The notes under the pieces are model-generated. The model had not been told where the DNA came from and did no database searches. It saw only the letters and a list, made by a program, of their open reading frames with translations. DNA of 42,130 nt from Nitrospirota bacterium (GTDB lineage Bacteria; Nitrospirota; 9FT-COMBO-42-15; HDB-SIOI813): NCBI GenBank assembly GCA_020846775.1, contig JADLDG010000005.1, forward strand, positions 1-42,130, written 5' to 3'. Position numbers and translations under genes: made by a program. Below are positions 818 to 38,519 of this stretch, piece by piece; the stretch's first letter is position 1; each line of letters opens with the position of its first letter.

Positions 818-1810
818 TTAGTCTTTTTTTTCGATCCCCTGTGAGTAATGAATCCTGCCGTTGCTGTCTACAATTATTCCTTCAACACCAGGAAGGCCCT
901 GTATCAGTTGCATCCCCTTTTCCGGTCCTAGGACAAAGACAGTTGTGGATAATGCATCTGATGTCATTGTATCCGGCGCAAGTATGGTTACGCTCGTACA
1001 GCCCCTTGCCGGCATGCCGGTTTTTGGATCAATTATATGGTGATAGAGGACGCCATCTTTAATGAAAAACCGCTCATAATCACCTGATGTTGAAACTGAT
1101 ATGTTGCTTAGGGGAAGCGTGGCCATGACCTTGTCTTTATCCCTCGGATGCTGAATTCCAATATCCCATGCCGCCCCGTCATTCGTCCCCTGAATCCGCA
1201 TATCCCCGCCTGATTTTATAATCGCATCAGTTATACCCTGTTTAACCAGGACATCCATCGCCATATCTACAGAATAACCTTTCGCTATCCCCCCAAGACC
1301 GATGGCCATACCCTGCCTCGTCAGGAACACTGATTTCTTTGTTTCATTCAACTTAATTTCCCTGTAATTTAAATACGGCAATTTCTCTGCGATTTCTTCC
1401 AATGAAGGGACACGCTCTTCCCCTTTCGAAAACTTCCATAATCCGCGCATTGCTGCCCATGAAATATCAAAGGCGCCACCGGAAAGTTCAGCAATCTTCT
1501 GAGAGGCAGCTATTACATTAAACAGCTCCGCAGGGACTTCAATCTCTGCCCTCCCGGCATTTCGATTAATTTTAGAAACGTATGACCCATCCTTCCACTC
1601 GCTCATCTCCATCTCGATACGTTCCATTTCCCTTACAGCAAGGTCAAATGCCTTTTCAACCTTTAAGTCATCTGAATCAGATGAGATTGATGCAATCAGC
1701 TCAACATCCGTGCCCATGAGAACGACATTCCGTTTAATCAACTTCGCTGAACATACAGATGGGCTCAGAAACAGCAAAAAGGTAAGAATATATAAGAGGG
1801 GGTATTTCAA
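818..1810 (-). CDS. apbE: FAD:protein FMN transferase ApbE, exported
   Basis: ApbE cleaves FAD and attaches FMN covalently to a Ser/Thr of target proteins outside the cytoplasm. The 330-residue protein begins with a hydrophobic signal peptide (to about residue 22, CSA). It carries the family motifs MGTDVEL near the N-terminus, GGIAKGYSVD and SGGDMRIQG in the middle, and HIIDPKTGMPA followed by the metal/catalytic segment D285-A-L-S-T near the C-terminus. The start is TTG, 2 bp after the DUF3570 stop and without a clear Shine-Dalgarno, so translation is probably coupled. It is the last gene of a tlpA-DUF4266-DUF3570-apbE operon. The natural target is not proven; the DUF3570 neighbour has a candidate acceptor motif. 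The enzyme assignment is firm, the operon role is inferred. Confidence 0.95.
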   Translation of the reverse strand: MKYPLLYILTFLLFLSPSVCSAKLIKRNVVLMGTDVELIASISSDSDDLKVEKAFDLAVREMERIEMEMSEWKDGSYVSKINRNAGRAEIEVPAELFNVIAASQKIAELSGGAFDISWAAMRGLWKFSKGEERVPSLEEIAEKLPYLNYREIKLNETKKSVFLTRQGMAIGLGGIAKGYSVDMAMDVLVKQGITDAIIKSGGDMRIQGTNDGAAWDIGIQHPRDKDKVMATLPLSNISVSTSGDYERFFIKDGVLYHHIIDPKTGMPARGCTSVTILAPDTMTSDALSTTVFVLGPEKGMQLIQGLPGVEGIIVDSNGRIHYSQGIEKKD

Positions 1811-1812
1811 TA

Positions 1813-3039
1813 TTAGAAAATAAATTTTAGACTGACTATAAAATCATGTGCACTGACATTGGTAGATTGCGTATAAAACTCATATCCACCTTCCAGATAA
1901 CTGTTTGCAAATATTCCAATATCTGGATCATCCGCAAATTGGTGTGATAGTTTTACTCCAAAAAGATATGTATCCTGCTTTTCCAATTGTGGTGACACGG
2001 ACAGGTATTTATCACTGCTTGTGTAAATACTTCTGACAAAGGATGCCTTTGACTGCTGATACATTCTTGCGTCTAATCTCAACAGGTTTTGATAGGGAAG
2101 ATACTGATAATACTCTGCCTGCTCTGTAAACGAGTCTACGTTCCAGTCATCCTTATAATATCGTAAGGTCAACCTGACAGATGCTGCTGAAGGAGAATAA
2201 ATTAGGCCATGCTGCAAATAATGGTTAATCCCAAGTATTAATGCATCACGATTTCTTGAGTCAGGAAATTTCTCAACCTTGCATGTTGTTGATATGTCAG
2301 TGCATGACAACGCAGTTGCACCATTTACAGGCACAAGCCTGTTTCCCTCAGACAAAAACCCTGCTGCCTCACTCCTTAAATAACCGATCTGTGCGATTGT
2401 CTTAGATGTTATTATCTGTGTAAAACCTGCATAGTAATTATTAGTGTTCTTTTTCTCCGTTAATGTCATGTACTTACCATCAACACTATCCATGTTCTTT
2501 GAATATCCAAGTATCAATGTCGTGTTTTTCAGGAACAGATCCTTTTTCAGAGTTATTCCAGGTGTGTTCGACACATAATCTTTTTCAGCGCTATAGTCAT
2601 AACCTGCCTCAACACTGATTATATTGTCAAAGTTATGGGTTAAACCTAATGTAATGTTATTTCTTGTATCTGTCGCCGCACTACTGCCTCCTATGGTAGA
2701 TGCGCCTGAGACTGCGGCAAGGGCCTTTGGAGCCGACTTCTTATCTGCCTCCACACCCCCACCGCCTCCTCCACCGCCTTCTTCAAACAGATTTGGATTT
2801 ATCATATCTACAGTGTACTTAAAATATGCCGTTGTATTGAGAGATACGTCCTTGTTAAGGGCAAATACACCGGTGTAAACAGTTATGTTATTGCTGAATG
2901 CGTGTATATACGTCTGTGCCGTTGCATAATCTTCAGAGAAAGCAGGCGAAACGGTAATTAAGAAGATGAAAAGGTTTAAAAGTAAACAAAGGATCAGCTT
3001 GTACTCATGTGGCTGTCTATTATGTTTAATTGCAGCCAC
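1813..3039 (-). CDS. DUF3570 outer-membrane beta-barrel protein
   Basis: This 408-residue protein has a long signal peptide (hydrophobic about residues 14-35, cleavage near AFS-ED), then repeated amphipathic beta-strand patterns, and ends in Phe (SLKFIF), as expected of a barrel inserted by BAM. It matches the DUF3570 family in pattern and neighbours. A loop at residues 86-125 is unusual: eight glycines in a row, then VSGASTIGG. SGAS (S111-S114) resembles the ApbE acceptor motif Dxx[ST]GA[ST], with Ala at the usual Asp position. The GTG start lies inside the end of the DUF4266 gene (14-bp overlap) and is supported by a GGAGG sequence just upstream. Function is unknown; a flavinylated outer-membrane protein is an inference from the motif and the adjacent apbE. 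Confidence 0.85.
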   Translation of the reverse strand: MAAIKHNRQPHEYKLILCLLLNLFIFLITVSPAFSEDYATAQTYIHAFSNNITVYTGVFALNKDVSLNTTAYFKYTVDMINPNLFEEGGGGGGGGVEADKKSAPKALAAVSGASTIGGSSAATDTRNNITLGLTHNFDNIISVEAGYDYSAEKDYVSNTPGITLKKDLFLKNTTLILGYSKNMDSVDGKYMTLTEKKNTNNYYAGFTQIITSKTIAQIGYLRSEAAGFLSEGNRLVPVNGATALSCTDISTTCKVEKFPDSRNRDALILGINHYLQHGLIYSPSAASVRLTLRYYKDDWNVDSFTEQAEYYQYLPYQNLLRLDARMYQQSKASFVRSIYTSSDKYLSVSPQLEKQDTYLFGVKLSHQFADDPDIGIFANSYLEGGYEFYTQSTNVSAHDFIVSLKFIF

Positions 3040-3277
3040 AACCGCCTCCGCTCACTCCAAAACTTCCGGAACTGGCCTCTCTGGTACTTAGAAAATGCTC
3101 CCGGACAGCCTTTTCTTCCCTGCAGTAATCAAACTGCATGATCGGATCAGCAAGATATTCCCTTTCCCAGGGCTGTACAACAGCACATCCTGAAAGCCCC
3201 GGCAGTATCAGGACAATTAAGATGAATATAACCCTTCCAGTCAGGGGGATGCGTTTTTTATTTGATGAGGCTGTCAA
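3026..3277 (-). CDS. DUF4266 small lipoprotein with Gly/Cys-rich C-terminus
   Basis: A small exported protein with a hydrophobic N-terminus ending in the lipobox LSGC, so a lipid-anchored mature chain of about 55 residues is expected. After the Cys comes AVVQPWEREYLADPIM, a typical DUF4266 pattern, and the chain ends in GGGCGCN. The family usually sits beside DUF3570, ApbE and a TlpA thioredoxin, as here. Start choice is uncertain because all candidates are non-ATG: TTG at 3319, GTG at 3310, or TTG at 3277. I prefer 3277, which has AAGGA close by and gives a normal-length signal peptide. It overlaps the end of tlpA by 20 bp. The two closely spaced C-terminal Cys could bind metal, form a disulfide, or be modified. 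Function is not known. Confidence 0.8.
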   Translation of the reverse strand: MTASSNKKRIPLTGRVIFILIVLILPGLSGCAVVQPWEREYLADPIMQFDYCREEKAVREHFLSTREASSGSFGVSGGGCGCN

Positions 3278-3773
3278 TTTCCTTAATCCATTTTGACGGG
3301 TCAGTCTCACTAAACCCAAAGTGTATATACCTTACAACCCCTTCTTTATCAATGATAAAGGAAGTCGGCATTGCCCTTGGACCGTAAGATGATATGACAG
3401 AAAATTGCGGATCTGTCAGTACCTTCATGTTAGAACTTGATATGGGATTCTTATCGAGAAATTCCACCATACCTGACCTGGTCTTGTCCTGATTTATCGC
3501 AAGTATAAAAAGACCAGAGCCGGAATACGTTGCGGCAAGTTTTTCAAGCTGTGGAAACTCCTGTTTACATGGTCCGCACCAGCTTGCCCAGAAATTTATA
3601 TAGACTACTTTTCCCTTTAGACTGTTAAGAGATACGGTTTTCCCATAGATATCAGGCAGGTTAAATTCAGGCGCCTTGTTATTAACCTGAATAGCCCACG
3701 AGTTAGTTGCGATGAGCAGCACTATGACAGACAGGGTAATGCTATTTACTATTTTATTGAGTCCTAAAACCAC
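3258..3773 (-). CDS. TlpA/ResA-like exported thioredoxin
   Basis: A 171-residue periplasmic thiol-disulfide oxidoreductase. An N-terminal hydrophobic segment (about residues 9-27, ending SWA) exports or anchors it. The thioredoxin fold follows, with APEFNLPDIYG, the active site WASWCGPCK (C66, C69), and the cis-Pro segment RAMPTSFIID. TlpA and ResA proteins typically reduce Cys pairs in the periplasm, for example apocytochrome haem sites. It is the first gene of the operon with DUF4266, DUF3570 and apbE, so the Cys pair at the DUF4266 C-terminus and the many CXXCH sites of the divergent cytochromes are both plausible clients. The start is GTG. A promoter and palindrome lie just upstream. Confidence 0.9.
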   Translation of the reverse strand: MVLGLNKIVNSITLSVIVLLIATNSWAIQVNNKAPEFNLPDIYGKTVSLNSLKGKVVYINFWASWCGPCKQEFPQLEKLAATYSGSGLFILAINQDKTRSGMVEFLDKNPISSSNMKVLTDPQFSVISSYGPRAMPTSFIIDKEGVVRYIHFGFSETDPSKWIKEIDSLIK

Positions 3774-3927: not shown

Positions 3928-5145
3928 ATGAGGCTGGTAATTCTTTCCGCCTTCTCTGCCTTATTGTTTTTTGTCTTGCCGTTAACGGCAGATTCAGCCG
4001 AGGTTAGCGGCCGAATCTCTACACAGCTCCTGTGGTATAACGATATTGTTGACGCAAGCCGGCAGAATGATGTTTCCGAGTATCTTCGTTTCTCTGTCAC
4101 TCACTTAGATAAAGAAAACAACATTTCTCTTACCGGTTATGGCAGACTGCTCTGGAATATCAAAGGCAGCAATACAAGGGATGAAGTTGAAACAAGACTG
4201 TACTATCTGTATGCCGATTACAGAAATTTTCTTAATGTATCTGACCTGCGGGTTGGCCGTCAGTTCGTGAACTTCTCCGCTGGCAGTGCACTGATGGAAG
4301 GTATACAGGCAGACATACGTGATATCGGACCTGTCGGGTTGGTGGTCATAGGGGGCCGCAATGTCATCTTCGGCGAAGATAAATTACTCACGAACCATTC
4401 TTATTCTGCCGGTTTTTCTGTGTATATTACCGGTAAATCCATGAACTATTTTGATGTCAGCTACTTACGAACCTACGATCACGGCGATATAGCTCGCGAC
4501 ATAATCGGCAGCAGTTATAAACAATATATATCAGAGTTGTTTAAACTTTATGCTAATGTGCGATATGATTTGACTGCAGAAGTCTTAAACGAGATACTGG
4601 GAGGCATCAAGTATTTCCCCACAAGCGATCTAATCTTAACCGCTGAGCACTACCAGAGTTATCCCACATTTGACTCTACATCTATATATTCTGTATTCGC
4701 TGTTGACCATTTCAAAGAGAATATTGTAAGGGCTGATTATACAGCAGCAGAGTGGGTTGATATCAACCTTCGTTACGGTTATGAGAGCTTCGGTGAAGGC
4801 ACTGATGCCACGCTGTATGAAGCAGGATTAAAGGTCCGGCCTTCTGTTCAAACTGCAATAGGCCTGTTTCACGATAGACGATGGGGTTATCCAGGAGACC
4901 TCGATGGATACAGGGTATATGCAGAATTCAACAATACGGCGAAGTGGAATGCTGCAATAGGAATTGACCATGACGTATACAACAGAGACAACATGACCGG
5001 AGAGGAATCGGCCAGGAGATACTGGGCTTCAGGCAGATATTCCTTTGCAAGGAAAATGTCAGGTTCATTCCGTCTTCAGGACAGCGTGGACGTCAACTAC
5101 AAAAAAGACATTCAGGGGAGGCTGACCTTCGATGTGGACTTCTAA
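3928..5145 (+). CDS. Porin-like outer-membrane beta-barrel of a porin-cytochrome complex
   Basis: A 405-residue protein with a signal peptide (cleavage near ADSA-EV, residue 24), many alternating hydrophobic strands separated by polar turns, and a C-terminal Phe (DVDF). The start is ATG with an unusually strong AAAGGAGGT site. It is the first of three genes, followed 18 bp later by a nonahaem cytochrome and then a decahaem lipoprotein. This is the order of Geobacter ombB-omaB-omcB clusters, and the length is closer to the short Omb porins than to MtrB of Shewanella. Its likely role is a sheath that lets the periplasmic cytochrome reach the surface cytochrome. No specific family domain was recognised, so the role rests on the barrel pattern and context. 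Confidence 0.75.
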   Translation: MRLVILSAFSALLFFVLPLTADSAEVSGRISTQLLWYNDIVDASRQNDVSEYLRFSVTHLDKENNISLTGYGRLLWNIKGSNTRDEVETRLYYLYADYRNFLNVSDLRVGRQFVNFSAGSALMEGIQADIRDIGPVGLVVIGGRNVIFGEDKLLTNHSYSAGFSVYITGKSMNYFDVSYLRTYDHGDIARDIIGSSYKQYISELFKLYANVRYDLTAEVLNEILGGIKYFPTSDLILTAEHYQSYPTFDSTSIYSVFAVDHFKENIVRADYTAAEWVDINLRYGYESFGEGTDATLYEAGLKVRPSVQTAIGLFHDRRWGYPGDLDGYRVYAEFNNTAKWNAAIGIDHDVYNRDNMTGEESARRYWASGRYSFARKMSGSFRLQDSVDVNYKKDIQGRLTFDVDF

Positions 5146-5163
5146 GGTATTACGGAGGCATTT

Positions 5164-6069
5164 ATGAACAAACCTGTTACTCTTCTGATATTCATTATCA
5201 CCTTTGCTATTACAGTCTCAGCCGGCTTCAGCAGATTGCCAATGGCACAGGACATTCCCGGGATGCCGGAGGAGACTAAAACAGACGCCAATGTTTCGGC
5301 ACCAGTAGCGGAGGGAACATCAGCACCCTCCGGGGACAAACAGGTAACAGAGAAAAAGAGCTTTATGGTTAAGCTCTCCCACAAAGAGTTTGCAGATATG
5401 GATCTGAAGAAGTGCGCCGAATGCCACATGGGCTCAGGTGTCGCTCCCACCCATGGTGGAGATCAGATGCGGGAACATGTATCGACCGCCCGTCGGGAAG
5501 AAGGGAACTGCGTTGACTGCCACAAACAGCAGTTCTGCCTTGATTGTCACACTGGCGGCGGAATAGATGCCAAATTGAATGTCGCAAATTACCGTGGGAA
5601 CTATGTACCAAATACCCACAGGACCAGCTTCAGGGAAATCCATCCGCTTAAGGCTCTGGATAACCCGCAGACCTGCATTCGCTGCCATGACACAAAGTTC
5701 TGCACTGAGTGCCACGAAAAGTTCCGGGGCGAGGATTTGAGAACCCTTTCTCACCGGAGGTCTTTCTCTGACCTCTCTGCAGGGACAGGCCCTTCTCATT
5801 CAAACTTTACTACAGGCCAGTGCCGGACCTGCCATCCCGGAGGACTTTTGCCGAAACAGGCCTGGTCGGCTGACCATGCCGCAGAGGCACGAAGGAATTT
5901 GCAGTCATGTCAGGCCTGCCACAGCGACGGAGATATATGTTTAACATGCCACAGCGCCAGGCAGGGATTGATAGTCAACCCCCACCCGCGTAACTGGAGC
6001 GATGTCAAGGACAAATACAGATTTAAGAGCGGGGGGCGAAGCTGTAATAAATGCCATGATAACTTTTAG
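5164..6069 (+). CDS. Periplasmic nonahaem c-type cytochrome (MtrA/Oma-like role)
   Basis: The 301-residue protein has a signal peptide (about residues 1-29) and nine CXXCH haem sites starting at residues 84, 116, 125, 171, 180, 220, 249, 259 and 294. Several sites come in close pairs, typical of wire-like multihaem proteins. A Pro/Thr/Ala-rich linker follows the signal peptide (about residues 31-60). The start ATG follows a GGAGG. Between a porin and an outer-membrane decahaem lipoprotein, its likely job is to carry electrons from the periplasm into the porin conduit. Shewanella MtrA has ten haems and Geobacter OmaB eight, so nine is intermediate. The c-type cytochrome call is certain; the partner assignment comes from context. 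Confidence 0.92.
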   Translation: MNKPVTLLIFIITFAITVSAGFSRLPMAQDIPGMPEETKTDANVSAPVAEGTSAPSGDKQVTEKKSFMVKLSHKEFADMDLKKCAECHMGSGVAPTHGGDQMREHVSTARREEGNCVDCHKQQFCLDCHTGGGIDAKLNVANYRGNYVPNTHRTSFREIHPLKALDNPQTCIRCHDTKFCTECHEKFRGEDLRTLSHRRSFSDLSAGTGPSHSNFTTGQCRTCHPGGLLPKQAWSADHAAEARRNLQSCQACHSDGDICLTCHSARQGLIVNPHPRNWSDVKDKYRFKSGGRSCNKCHDNF

Positions 6070-6098
6070 GGATATTTTTTGTTAAGGAGGACCGGGTA

Positions 6099-8327
6099 AT
6101 GGTTAAGCGGAACAAGGCACATGCAATTGTCCTTATAGCGATTATATTGGCTGGTATTGTCACAGGCTGCGGGAGCAACAAAAAAGAAGGCGCTCAGGCG
6201 CCAAAGGCTGCGGTCAGTCCCGGTGGAAATCTCCAGTCAACTATTCAAGGCTTTGATACTAATGGTCCCAAACCAGTAGTCACCTTTACGCTGTTTGATG
6301 AGAAGGGGGAGCCGATTGACCCCTCTACACCAGGCATGAGCGTGAGGTTTACTCTTGCCCGGATAGGCGCTGACGGTAATTACAGGAACTACATTAAGTC
6401 TTCTACCGCTGGTCAGCCAGGGCTGGACTCTGGAGGAACCTTTGCCGCGACAGACCAAGACGGCACCTATACATATACTTTCGGGACCGACATTAAAGAC
6501 ACAACAAAGACATTAGGGGGCCTGGCGTTCGATTCATCTTTAACCCACACGGTCGGGGCACAGATACAGCGTACAGTAGTTTCTGCAGCCGGCACCCCAT
6601 TTCAGCAGGCAGTGAATCCATACCTGAACTTCAGGCCCGACGGCAAGGCAGTAACAGTAAGCAGGGAGATAGTTTCTATCTCTGCCTGCAACGGTTGTCA
6701 CGGTAAGCTTGGACTTCATGGGGGAGGAAGGCGGGAGATTGCCCTGTGTATACTCTGTCATAATCCGGGACCGACTGACCTTGAAACTGATCAGGCAATT
6801 GACATGAAATCACTTATACACAAGATACATATGGGTGAAAAACTTCCAAGCAATGCTGCAGGCGGCGACTACACTATTATAGGCTTCGGTGGCGCCGTTC
6901 ACAGTTACAAGACAGTGGCCTTTCCTTTTATGTCAGGAGACACTACTATAACTGCTACGCCGATAGAGTGCATCAAGTGCCATGTGTCAGGGACGGATCT
7001 TTCAGGCAATAGTTATGGCAAAGATGCAGATAAATGGAAGGAATCCCCGACAAGAGAAAAGTGCAGCACCTGCCACGATTTAACGACATATGACGACAGC
7101 GTTACAAAAGTGGTTAAGAACGGAAAAGACAACATTACTGCTACAGCAGTGCCGCACACAGGAGGTGTACAGACCGGTGATAGTCTTTGTGCAGGATGTC
7201 ACCCTGATACGGGCGGCAATGATTATGATATTACACCGAAAGATGCAGAGGAGCCCAGGGTGCCTGTCCCAAGCGCACACACTATACTGGAAAGATCAAC
7301 CGTATATTCCGGAATAAACTTTGCGATTATTTCAGTTATTGACGCAACTGCAGGCAGCGCCCCGACTGTGACCTTTAAGGTAACAGACGATGAAGGAAAT
7401 ATAATTTCGCCTGCATCACCGTCAAGCTTCAGTTTAAAGGTCGGGTATTTTTCTCAGACGGACTATATCAATAACGGGATGGTAGAATATGGTCAGCCGT
7501 TAACACAGGCGCTCACAGGGGCCACAGCAAACGGAGACGGCAGTTATACTATAACCTTTGCCTCACCAATCCCGGCGACGGCAACAGGCGTCGGCGTCAT
7601 CGGTATAGAGGGCAGAAGACCATACTCAGTGTCTACACCACATAAGGGGACACAAAATTACAATGTGGGTGGAAAAGCAGTGCAATATTATTTTGACCTC
7701 GCAACTGGATTAAAGATCACTGATCCATCAAAACAGAGGCGTCAGGCAGTAGACACAAACAAATGCCTGGTCTGTCACAGCAGGTTATCATTGCACGGTG
7801 CAAACCGTGTCAACAATGTGATGGAATGTGTAATTTGCCATAACCCTAACGCTACTGACAGGAGCAGAAGACCTGCTACCCCGGTAGACGGCCTCACAGA
7901 GCGGCCTATTGACTTCAAGGTTATGATCCACAGCATCCACACAGGTGAAAACCTCGACCTGTCAAAACCATACGTGATTTACGGTTTTGGAAACAGCGTC
8001 AACGACTTCTCCGAGGTCCGGTTTCCGAGGGATCGCAGGGACTGCCTTGCCTGCCATATTGATGCAGAGCCAGTGACGTATGGAGTTCCTTTGACGGCAA
8101 ATATACTTGGTACGACTTCCAATACCGGTACGGATCTGAATAATAAAGTGTCAGATGACAACTCAAGGACACTGCCGCATAAATCCGTATGCGTATCGTG
8201 TCACAATAATGCCATAGCATCCGGCCATGCTGACGGCAAGGTAGTTAATGGAGTGGAAACTTGTTCACAGTGCCACTCTACAGGGCTGCTACTCGGACCG
8301 GATTTTGCTCATTTACCTGCGAGATAA
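6099..8327 (+). CDS. OmcA/MtrC-family decahaem outer-surface lipoprotein cytochrome
   Basis: The 742-residue protein begins with a lipoprotein signal peptide (lipobox VTGC, C24). It has ten CXXCH sites in two blocks of five: block 1 from about residue 197 to 370 and block 2 from about 555 to 726. Each block is preceded by a beta-rich domain (about 45-190 and 405-540), matching the four-domain MtrC/OmcA layout. The two halves repeat the same sequence pattern, for example CHGKLGLHGG...CILCHNPG with SLIHKIHMGE, and CHSRLSLHGA...CVICHNPN with VMIHSIHTGE. Members sit on the cell surface and pass electrons to minerals, shuttles or partner cells. It follows the nonahaem gene by 29 bp with its own AAGGAGG site. 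Confidence 0.95.
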   Translation: MVKRNKAHAIVLIAIILAGIVTGCGSNKKEGAQAPKAAVSPGGNLQSTIQGFDTNGPKPVVTFTLFDEKGEPIDPSTPGMSVRFTLARIGADGNYRNYIKSSTAGQPGLDSGGTFAATDQDGTYTYTFGTDIKDTTKTLGGLAFDSSLTHTVGAQIQRTVVSAAGTPFQQAVNPYLNFRPDGKAVTVSREIVSISACNGCHGKLGLHGGGRREIALCILCHNPGPTDLETDQAIDMKSLIHKIHMGEKLPSNAAGGDYTIIGFGGAVHSYKTVAFPFMSGDTTITATPIECIKCHVSGTDLSGNSYGKDADKWKESPTREKCSTCHDLTTYDDSVTKVVKNGKDNITATAVPHTGGVQTGDSLCAGCHPDTGGNDYDITPKDAEEPRVPVPSAHTILERSTVYSGINFAIISVIDATAGSAPTVTFKVTDDEGNIISPASPSSFSLKVGYFSQTDYINNGMVEYGQPLTQALTGATANGDGSYTITFASPIPATATGVGVIGIEGRRPYSVSTPHKGTQNYNVGGKAVQYYFDLATGLKITDPSKQRRQAVDTNKCLVCHSRLSLHGANRVNNVMECVICHNPNATDRSRRPATPVDGLTERPIDFKVMIHSIHTGENLDLSKPYVIYGFGNSVNDFSEVRFPRDRRDCLACHIDAEPVTYGVPLTANILGTTSNTGTDLNNKVSDDNSRTLPHKSVCVSCHNNAIASGHADGKVVNGVETCSQCHSTGLLLGPDFAHLPAR

Positions 8328-37358: not shown

Positions 37359-38519
37359 ATGAGAAAATTTTCTTTGTACTTACTTAAAGGTAGTTTGCCC
37401 CTTGTCAGTTTTATTGTGCTTGCTCATTCGGGGCTTGTATCTGCCGCATCGGATCTAACTTGGTCTGGTGATTTCCGAACAGGTTATTTTTCGAATAAAA
37501 AAGATGCGCGTGATGGTGTAAATAGCTCCAGAGATGAAGGCCGGGTGCGGCTACGTATTGGTGGTGAATATACAGCGAGCGAAAGCTGGAAATTTAAACT
37601 CAGAGCTGCCGGAAGAACTTTTCTGGAAAATAATCATCCAGACGCGGAGATAAAAATTTTCAGCGAAATCCCTTCGGGTGATGGTCTACGGGCGGGGGAT
37701 GCAACACTAGATGAAATCAATGCCAGGTATATAAAAGATAATCTGGATGTGATATTTGGTCGTTTTCAAACCAAGATGGAATTAGATGGGGTAGCAAAAA
37801 AATCATTGGATCGAAATGATAGTCCAAATACGGATATTACCTGGACAGATGGTGTTTATGCCAAAATAAAAGTGGCGGGTGACTGGGCTCATCATTTTAT
37901 CCTTCAATATAATTACTCAACGGGTGCAACCGAAGTCCGTCGTTCACCGCTTGATTTTTCTTCATCGGCAAGTCGTGCGAGCGCATTTTGGGCATTAGAA
38001 AATCGTAAAAAAGCAGGTGCTTTTGTACAGCGTGGAGTTGATATCACTTATTTACCAGATGCTTTATGCACTGATGGCGGTTCATGTAACCAACGTAAAG
38101 ATTACATCACAATAGTTGGACGAGCAGCGATGGAATGGCCTTTAGGCACATCAGGCACAAAATTTATGTTGGGTACAGAAGCGGGGTATGCTGTAAATAC
38201 CCAGACACGTGTTGCAGCAAATACTGGCACAAGTGGTGATGCAGATGGCCTTGCATGGCAACTGACATTTAACTTTATTGATATTGTACCTAAACATAGT
38301 TTAGGACTTGTCTACGCAAATGCCGGTGCAGGTTGGTTGATATCACCGGATATTCGCAACAATAACTCTTTAGTTGAATTGCGTTATAAATGGGCAGTTG
38401 ATAAACGTAACAGCATAGAAGCACGTATCCGTCAGCGTCAGGATTTAGAAACACTCGTTGGTGAAACGCGTAAACAGGTTGATGATGATTTATATGTTCG
38501 CTATACGTGGAAGTTCTAA
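37359..38519 (+). CDS. Outer-membrane porin-like beta-barrel protein
   Basis: The 386-residue protein has a signal peptide (cleavage near VSAA-SD, residue 31) and alternating barrel strands such as LTWSGDFRTGYF, EARIRQRQDL and the closing VRYTWKF with terminal Phe. A loop contains a Cys pair (ALCTDGGSCNQ). No specific substrate family was recognised; it resembles putative alginate/OprD-size porins of gammaproteobacteria. The AT-rich codons, long AT-rich leader and its own strong terminator differ from the neighbouring genes and suggest recent transfer. It sits alone between IS relics and an adenine deaminase fragment. Confidence 0.75.
   Translation: MRKFSLYLLKGSLPLVSFIVLAHSGLVSAASDLTWSGDFRTGYFSNKKDARDGVNSSRDEGRVRLRIGGEYTASESWKFKLRAAGRTFLENNHPDAEIKIFSEIPSGDGLRAGDATLDEINARYIKDNLDVIFGRFQTKMELDGVAKKSLDRNDSPNTDITWTDGVYAKIKVAGDWAHHFILQYNYSTGATEVRRSPLDFSSSASRASAFWALENRKKAGAFVQRGVDITYLPDALCTDGGSCNQRKDYITIVGRAAMEWPLGTSGTKFMLGTEAGYAVNTQTRVAANTGTSGDADGLAWQLTFNFIDIVPKHSLGLVYANAGAGWLISPDIRNNNSLVELRYKWAVDKRNSIEARIRQRQDLETLVGETRKQVDDDLYVRYTWKF

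Follow-up and report, generated by a model that had tools for sequence, protein, structure and literature searches.

The locus described here raises the question of whether a predicted outer-membrane barrel of the DUF3570 family is itself the protein to which the adjacent flavin transferase, ApbE, attaches FMN, and, if so, what a flavin might do at such a place. The genes lie on the minus strand of the window, i.e. the whole stretch of 42,130 nucleotides that was analysed. There they form a compact operon in the order TlpA, DUF4266, DUF3570, ApbE, and Pfam backs all four:

3258 to 3773, minus strand: periplasmic thioredoxin of the TlpA/ResA type with a WCGPC active site (Pfam AhpC-TSA 1.5e-26 and Redoxin 2.2e-26; NCBIfam ResA-like 2.6e-30)
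3026 to 3319, minus strand: small DUF4266 lipoprotein with an LSGC lipobox and a C-terminal GGGCGCN (CxC) tail (Pfam DUF4266 3.8e-21)
1813 to 3039, minus strand: DUF3570 protein of 408 amino acids, a predicted 16-strand outer-membrane barrel and proposed ApbE substrate (Pfam DUF3570, PF12094, 9.9e-37, 127.2 bits, cut-off 25; AlphaFold2; Foldseek)
818 to 1810, minus strand: ApbE flavin transferase (Pfam ApbE, PF02424, 3e-86)

Both the protein family and the gene cluster are known. Meheust et al. (2021, eLife; PMC8238504) presented DUF3570 as an ApbE substrate with two conserved [ST]GA[ST] motifs, and the Chlorobium luteolum protein was flavinylated by its cognate ApbE, an effect abolished only when the serines of both motifs were changed. 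The same study also reported clusters in which genes for DsbD and a thioredoxin-like protein stand together with those for DUF3570, ApbE and a DUF4266 protein bearing CxC at its C-terminus, and left their function open. In our literature search, no other paper naming DUF3570 or PF12094 was found. DUF3570 flavinylation and the cluster are thus already published, and what the window adds is a member of the family with a single site that lacks the motif Asp.

The window's operon corresponds to the type of cluster that has no local DsbD gene, of which 316 were published (PMC8238504): four of the five genes stand in one operon and the DsbD gene is absent from it, whereas the operon of a relative from the same genus has one. 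In this relative (G017) and in G298, a DsbD/CcdA gene is found between DUF3570 and ApbE (contig C25 of G017, L049:11787-15450; contig C36 of G298, L048 and L037), and the only DsbD_TM match in the window's own genome is on another contig, C34. The cysteines of the two remaining candidate carriers are intact in the sequence, both the CxxC of the thioredoxin and the CxC of DUF4266, and the GGGCGCN tail of this very small lipoprotein is nearly invariant among relatives. Elsewhere in the window, a 386-aa frame on the plus strand (37359-38519) had no match in Pfam at 1e-5.

The proposed flavin site and its conservation in the family

The candidate site is on the loop that joins strand 3 to strand 4 of the DUF3570 protein. 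Three short stretches of codons are of interest:

2698 to 2712, minus strand: codons of V110-SGAS114, family site 2 with the motif Asp changed to Ala; FMN is predicted to be attached to S114 (sequence; alignment with DAVTGAT/DAVSGAT of relatives)
2755 to 2778, minus strand: eight consecutive Gly codons, G88-G95, of the strand 3-4 loop (sequence; disordered in the model, pLDDT <50)
2797 to 2808, minus strand: codons of D78-M-I-N81, the position of family site 1, with the Asp retained and the acceptor motif gone in the window's clade (alignment; LDAITGAT in two-site relatives versus VDMINP here)

What the earlier note had read from the letters is accurate: the DUF3570 gene is directly upstream of apbE (1813-3039 and 818-1810, both on the minus strand); eight glycines in a row (G88-G95) precede V110-S111-G112-A113-S114-T115, which starts 14 residues further on; and the Asp expected six positions before the acceptor is an Ala (AAVSGAS). 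The DUF4266 and thioredoxin genes lie further upstream on the same strand. Because the ApbE rule takes the last residue of SGAS, S114 and not T115 is the predicted acceptor. The [ST]GA[ST] core, including a Ser or Thr as acceptor, is present (SGAS, 111-114) and is kept in the same loop of relatives; at the composition of this protein, 0.06 such motifs per protein are expected by chance. The window's protein does not carry two canonical sites, since site 1 reads VDMINP and site 2 AAVSGAS, the latter followed by a degenerate SSAAT.

It is useful to compare this arrangement with known ApbE targets. With the DUF3570 substrates of PMC8238504 it shares the Pfam family, the loop motif and an adjacent ApbE; it differs from them in that theirs have two [ST]GA[ST] sites and the window's protein has one canonical site, an Ala for the Asp and a longer Gly-rich loop. 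NqrC and RnfG resemble it inasmuch as ApbE links FMN to a Dxx[ST]GA[ST] motif. Unlike these, the window's protein has no FMN_bind domain, and its site falls within a disordered stretch between two strands of a predicted outer-membrane barrel.

The conservation of the site was followed in an alignment of the window's protein with 34 further DUF3570 proteins (n = 35), drawn from the window's phylum and from relatives in genome_contigs. The motif [ST][GASTQ]A[ST] is found in all of them (35 out of 35), always in the loop preceding a strand that starts with a conserved acidic-x-Arg, and the density of [ST]xA[ST] is 4.7 per 100 amino acids in this loop as opposed to 0.05 elsewhere, an approximately 90-fold difference. 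The Asp six positions before the acceptor is present in 25 of the 35 proteins. A conserved [ST]GA[ST] in the same loop had been proposed as a check of the earlier idea, and the alignment bears it out in the form of [ST]xA[ST].

The same is true of the proximity to ApbE, which adjoins DUF3570 downstream and on the same strand in 21 of the 34 relatives' loci with sufficient downstream sequence (at least 700 bases). DUF4266 occurs nearby in at least 32 and TlpA in at least 30 out of 37 loci, both numbers being lower bounds because the contigs are short. At the level of whole genomes, ApbE is present in all 24 good-quality genomes that have DUF3570 above the Pfam cut-off (G052 and G078, with matches under the cut-off, were omitted) versus 285 of 325 good-quality genomes in the phylum (p = 0.055). 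Since ApbE is this common anyway, we rejected genome-level co-occurrence as evidence; only the adjacency and the loop conservation are informative. A search of viral contigs found no relatives, and the plasmid search gave distant matches alone, in Vibrio and Hymenobacter.

The operon ApbE itself keeps the catalytic residues S242, H258 and D285, which were located by alignment to FmnB (7esa) and others and are conserved among the ApbE partners; a catalytic triad of Ser, His and Asp is named in PMC12052999. The proposal that the barrel is the ApbE target is thus supported by the loop site in every aligned protein, by the adjacent ApbE and by the flavinylated homologue (PMC8238504), and we consider it very likely that the window's DUF3570 protein is a flavinylated barrel, with FMN attached to S114 by the ApbE of the operon.

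The predicted barrel, the side of the loop and a possible electron route

The AlphaFold2 model of the mature window protein (built from 13 sequences) has 16 strands and a mean pLDDT of 83, while mature residues 50-86, which include the glycine run and the SGAS loop, are disordered (pLDDT <50). A second AlphaFold model, led by the homologue L042 (39% identical), again contains 16 strands and places the site after strand 3 and before strand 4. As the same 13 sequences went into both models, they count as partly dependent. The protein has the marks of an outer-membrane barrel, i.e. an even number of antiparallel strands (16, predicted), a signal-type N-terminus (a hydrophobic segment judged by eye) and a C-terminal Phe, the residue with which outer-membrane proteins usually end. 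Its Foldseek matches are solved outer-membrane barrels, and the top TM-scores, those of the polysaccharide-export proteins BcsC and PelB, are modest (0.53-0.57). The export barrels BcsC, PgaA and PelB, which have 16 strands, are the best fold matches (query TM-score 0.51-0.57). They differ from the window's protein in that they share 7-10% identity with it, have no detectable sequence relation to it and carry no flavin, and the window's protein has no TPR domain.

The longest loops of outer-membrane barrels are usually extracellular, and the termini are by rule periplasmic. Given the even strand count, two periplasmic termini and the C-terminal Phe, the loop past strand 3 is predicted to be on the outside. 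The prediction leans on this rule for the termini, and on this basis we regard an extracellular position of the strand 3-4 loop as reasonably probable. In the models, the three longest loops are all on the same side as the flavin loop.

Residue conservation in the lumen agrees with a functional loop-side end of the barrel. Each half of the barrel has 53 strand residues that face the lumen. In the half nearer the loop, 18 of these reach at least 3.5 bits, among them D78, R126, E152, Y155, D184, R262, R293, Y295, D297, R325, Y327 and Q329; in the opposite half only 1 does (Mann-Whitney p = 7e-6). Of the 48 residues that face the membrane in the half nearer the loop, none reaches this value. Since lumen-facing residues were assigned via the alternation of polarity, the contrast between inside and outside is partly built in, which does not apply to the contrast of the two halves. 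What is new here is the side on which the loop is predicted to lie, together with this conserved outer pocket.

We propose that the system works as follows. Secreted ApbE would attach FMN to S114 of the unfolded DUF3570 protein in the periplasm, most likely before insertion. Modification before folding fits the failure of ApbE to act on an engineered target that was already folded (PMC10722498); the published DUF3570 protein was flavinylated though mostly found in the pellet (PMC8238504). The barrel would then be inserted with the flavin loop pointing outward, and the FMN may dock at the outer end, in the pocket that conserved charged and aromatic residues form on the lumen side; we infer this docking, as the loop itself is modelled with a pLDDT below 50. 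Reducing power might pass from DsbD/CcdA to the TlpA-type thioredoxin, then to the CxC cysteines at the end of DUF4266 and from these to the FMN, both the route and its direction being conjectural, and the electrons could leave the FMN for an acceptor at or beyond the outer membrane.

Taken as a whole, the suggestion that DUF3570 forms a flavin route through the outer membrane, with the FMN of an extracellular loop held in a conserved pocket at the outer mouth of the 16-strand barrel, where the Gly-rich CxC tail of DUF4266 would reach in from the periplasm and hand it electrons that DsbD and TlpA supply, is tentative and less likely than not. If true, it would be a counterpart of the MtrCAB conduit that runs on thiols and needs no heme, and with the flavin at the cell-surface end, a widespread cluster may carry thiol electrons across the outer membrane without heme. 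The predicted loop side and the pocket provide the function of the cluster with a testable hypothesis of outer-membrane electron transfer.

A different reading keeps the flavin and moves it to the periplasmic side, or to the inside of the barrel as reached from the periplasmic mouth, where it would serve a periplasmic reductase (for example of iron or of disulfides) and pass no electrons across the outer membrane. The TlpA, DUF4266 and DsbD donors as well as the modifying enzyme are all periplasmic or in the inner membrane, as this reading would have it, and an iron transporter is part of 25 published clusters (PMC8238504). However, the even strand count of both models and the terminal Phe place the loop outside, with the other longest loops, and we view a periplasmic reductase as possible but rather doubtful.

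A clade with one site and without the motif Asp

The proposed flavin site has a varied history within the family. Two sites are present in 15 of the 35 proteins (e.g. LDAITGAT...VDAVTGAT). In the window's clade site 1 reads VDMINP or similar, D78 being retained and the acceptor lost, and site 2 keeps its core with the Asp changed to Ala in 9 of the 11 members. The two exceptions are L038, which retains the Asp, and L039, in which the Asp is shifted by one residue; the latter reads GDAVTTGAT followed by AASGAS, possibly a re-arranged double site. The sister group in the tree (L040-L042) has lost site 1 and kept the Asp at site 2, which suggests that site 1 was lost first, before the Asp of site 2. 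L016 and L020 (genomes G083 and G048) show a pattern opposite to that of the window's clade: they keep site 1 (DAISSAT/DAITSAT) and have lost site 2.

It had been argued in the earlier note that the change from Asp to Ala weakens the case for flavinylation. We find this a weak objection, as mutagenesis of another ApbE target gave only minor effects of an Asp-to-Ala change in the motif (reviewed in PMC12052999), although the Asp is called essential in PMC10722498. The Asp-less clade offers a natural test of the strictness of the ApbE motif.

One could also imagine that the loop in this clade is a relic that is no longer flavinylated and that the barrel is purely structural or used for transport. 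The loss of the acceptor at site 1 and of the Asp at site 2 would be in line with this, all the more if the Asp is essential as stated in PMC10722498. On the other hand, [ST]xA[ST] persists in every member of the clade while the loop around it varies freely in the alignment, ApbE is adjacent in most members and is catalytically intact, and the published effects of the Asp-to-Ala change are minor (PMC12052999). A relic would also leave the ApbE of G298 without a substrate of known type. This genome (95% complete) has one ApbE, which adjoins an Asp-less DUF3570 protein (VAAVSTAS), and neither FMN_bind nor DUF2271 proteins were found in it, so that DUF3570 is the only substrate of known type for its ApbE. 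We consider an unflavinylated relic improbable and retain flavinylation of S114 as the preferred reading.

Neighbouring cytochrome genes and the ApbE partners

Next to the operon and divergent from it, on the plus strand, is a cluster of three genes (3928-8327) that looks like a porin-cytochrome conduit. One gene encodes a 405-aa protein, probably a barrel, for which Pfam has no match; the other two encode a multiheme cytochrome of 301 aa and a decaheme cytochrome of the OmcA/MtrC type (TIGR03507, 9.3e-147). The earlier note had tied the flavin barrel to a cytochrome conduit, and it is conceivable that the barrel is an accessory that exchanges electrons with this cluster, given that the starts of the leading genes of both operons are at most 155 bases apart and that an OmcA/MtrC-type cytochrome is present. 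Yet none of the three proteins has a match near DUF3570 in the flanks of relatives, including about 12 kb upstream in the same-genus genome G017 and the longer flanks of L034, L035, L037 and L039. The adjacency to the cytochrome cluster is therefore not evidence of shared function, and a functional link as a conserved feature was rejected. The tie to a conduit is unsupported, and we think an exchange of electrons with the cytochrome cluster unlikely to occur.

Least plausible of all is that DUF3570 is a bystander and the operon ApbE acts mostly on some other protein, for example the one FMN_bind protein of the same genome, which is RnfG-like and encoded in an Rnf-type cluster: a second ApbE is encoded on another contig, so that by count the operon ApbE is not needed for it, and relatives with DUF3570 but without FMN_bind keep the adjacent ApbE.

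Finally, we considered whether changes in ApbE compensate for the lost Asp, and rejected this possibility. Sixteen positions separate the ApbE partners, and at 14 of these the partner of L038, the one Asp-bearing member of the clade, carries the residue of the clade; these positions therefore go with membership of the clade, irrespective of the Asp. Within the clade, the ApbE proteins share residues that are absent from the other partners, such as W72, W118 and L255, where those have Y/F, mostly F/V, and R, respectively, and these residues likewise follow the clade.
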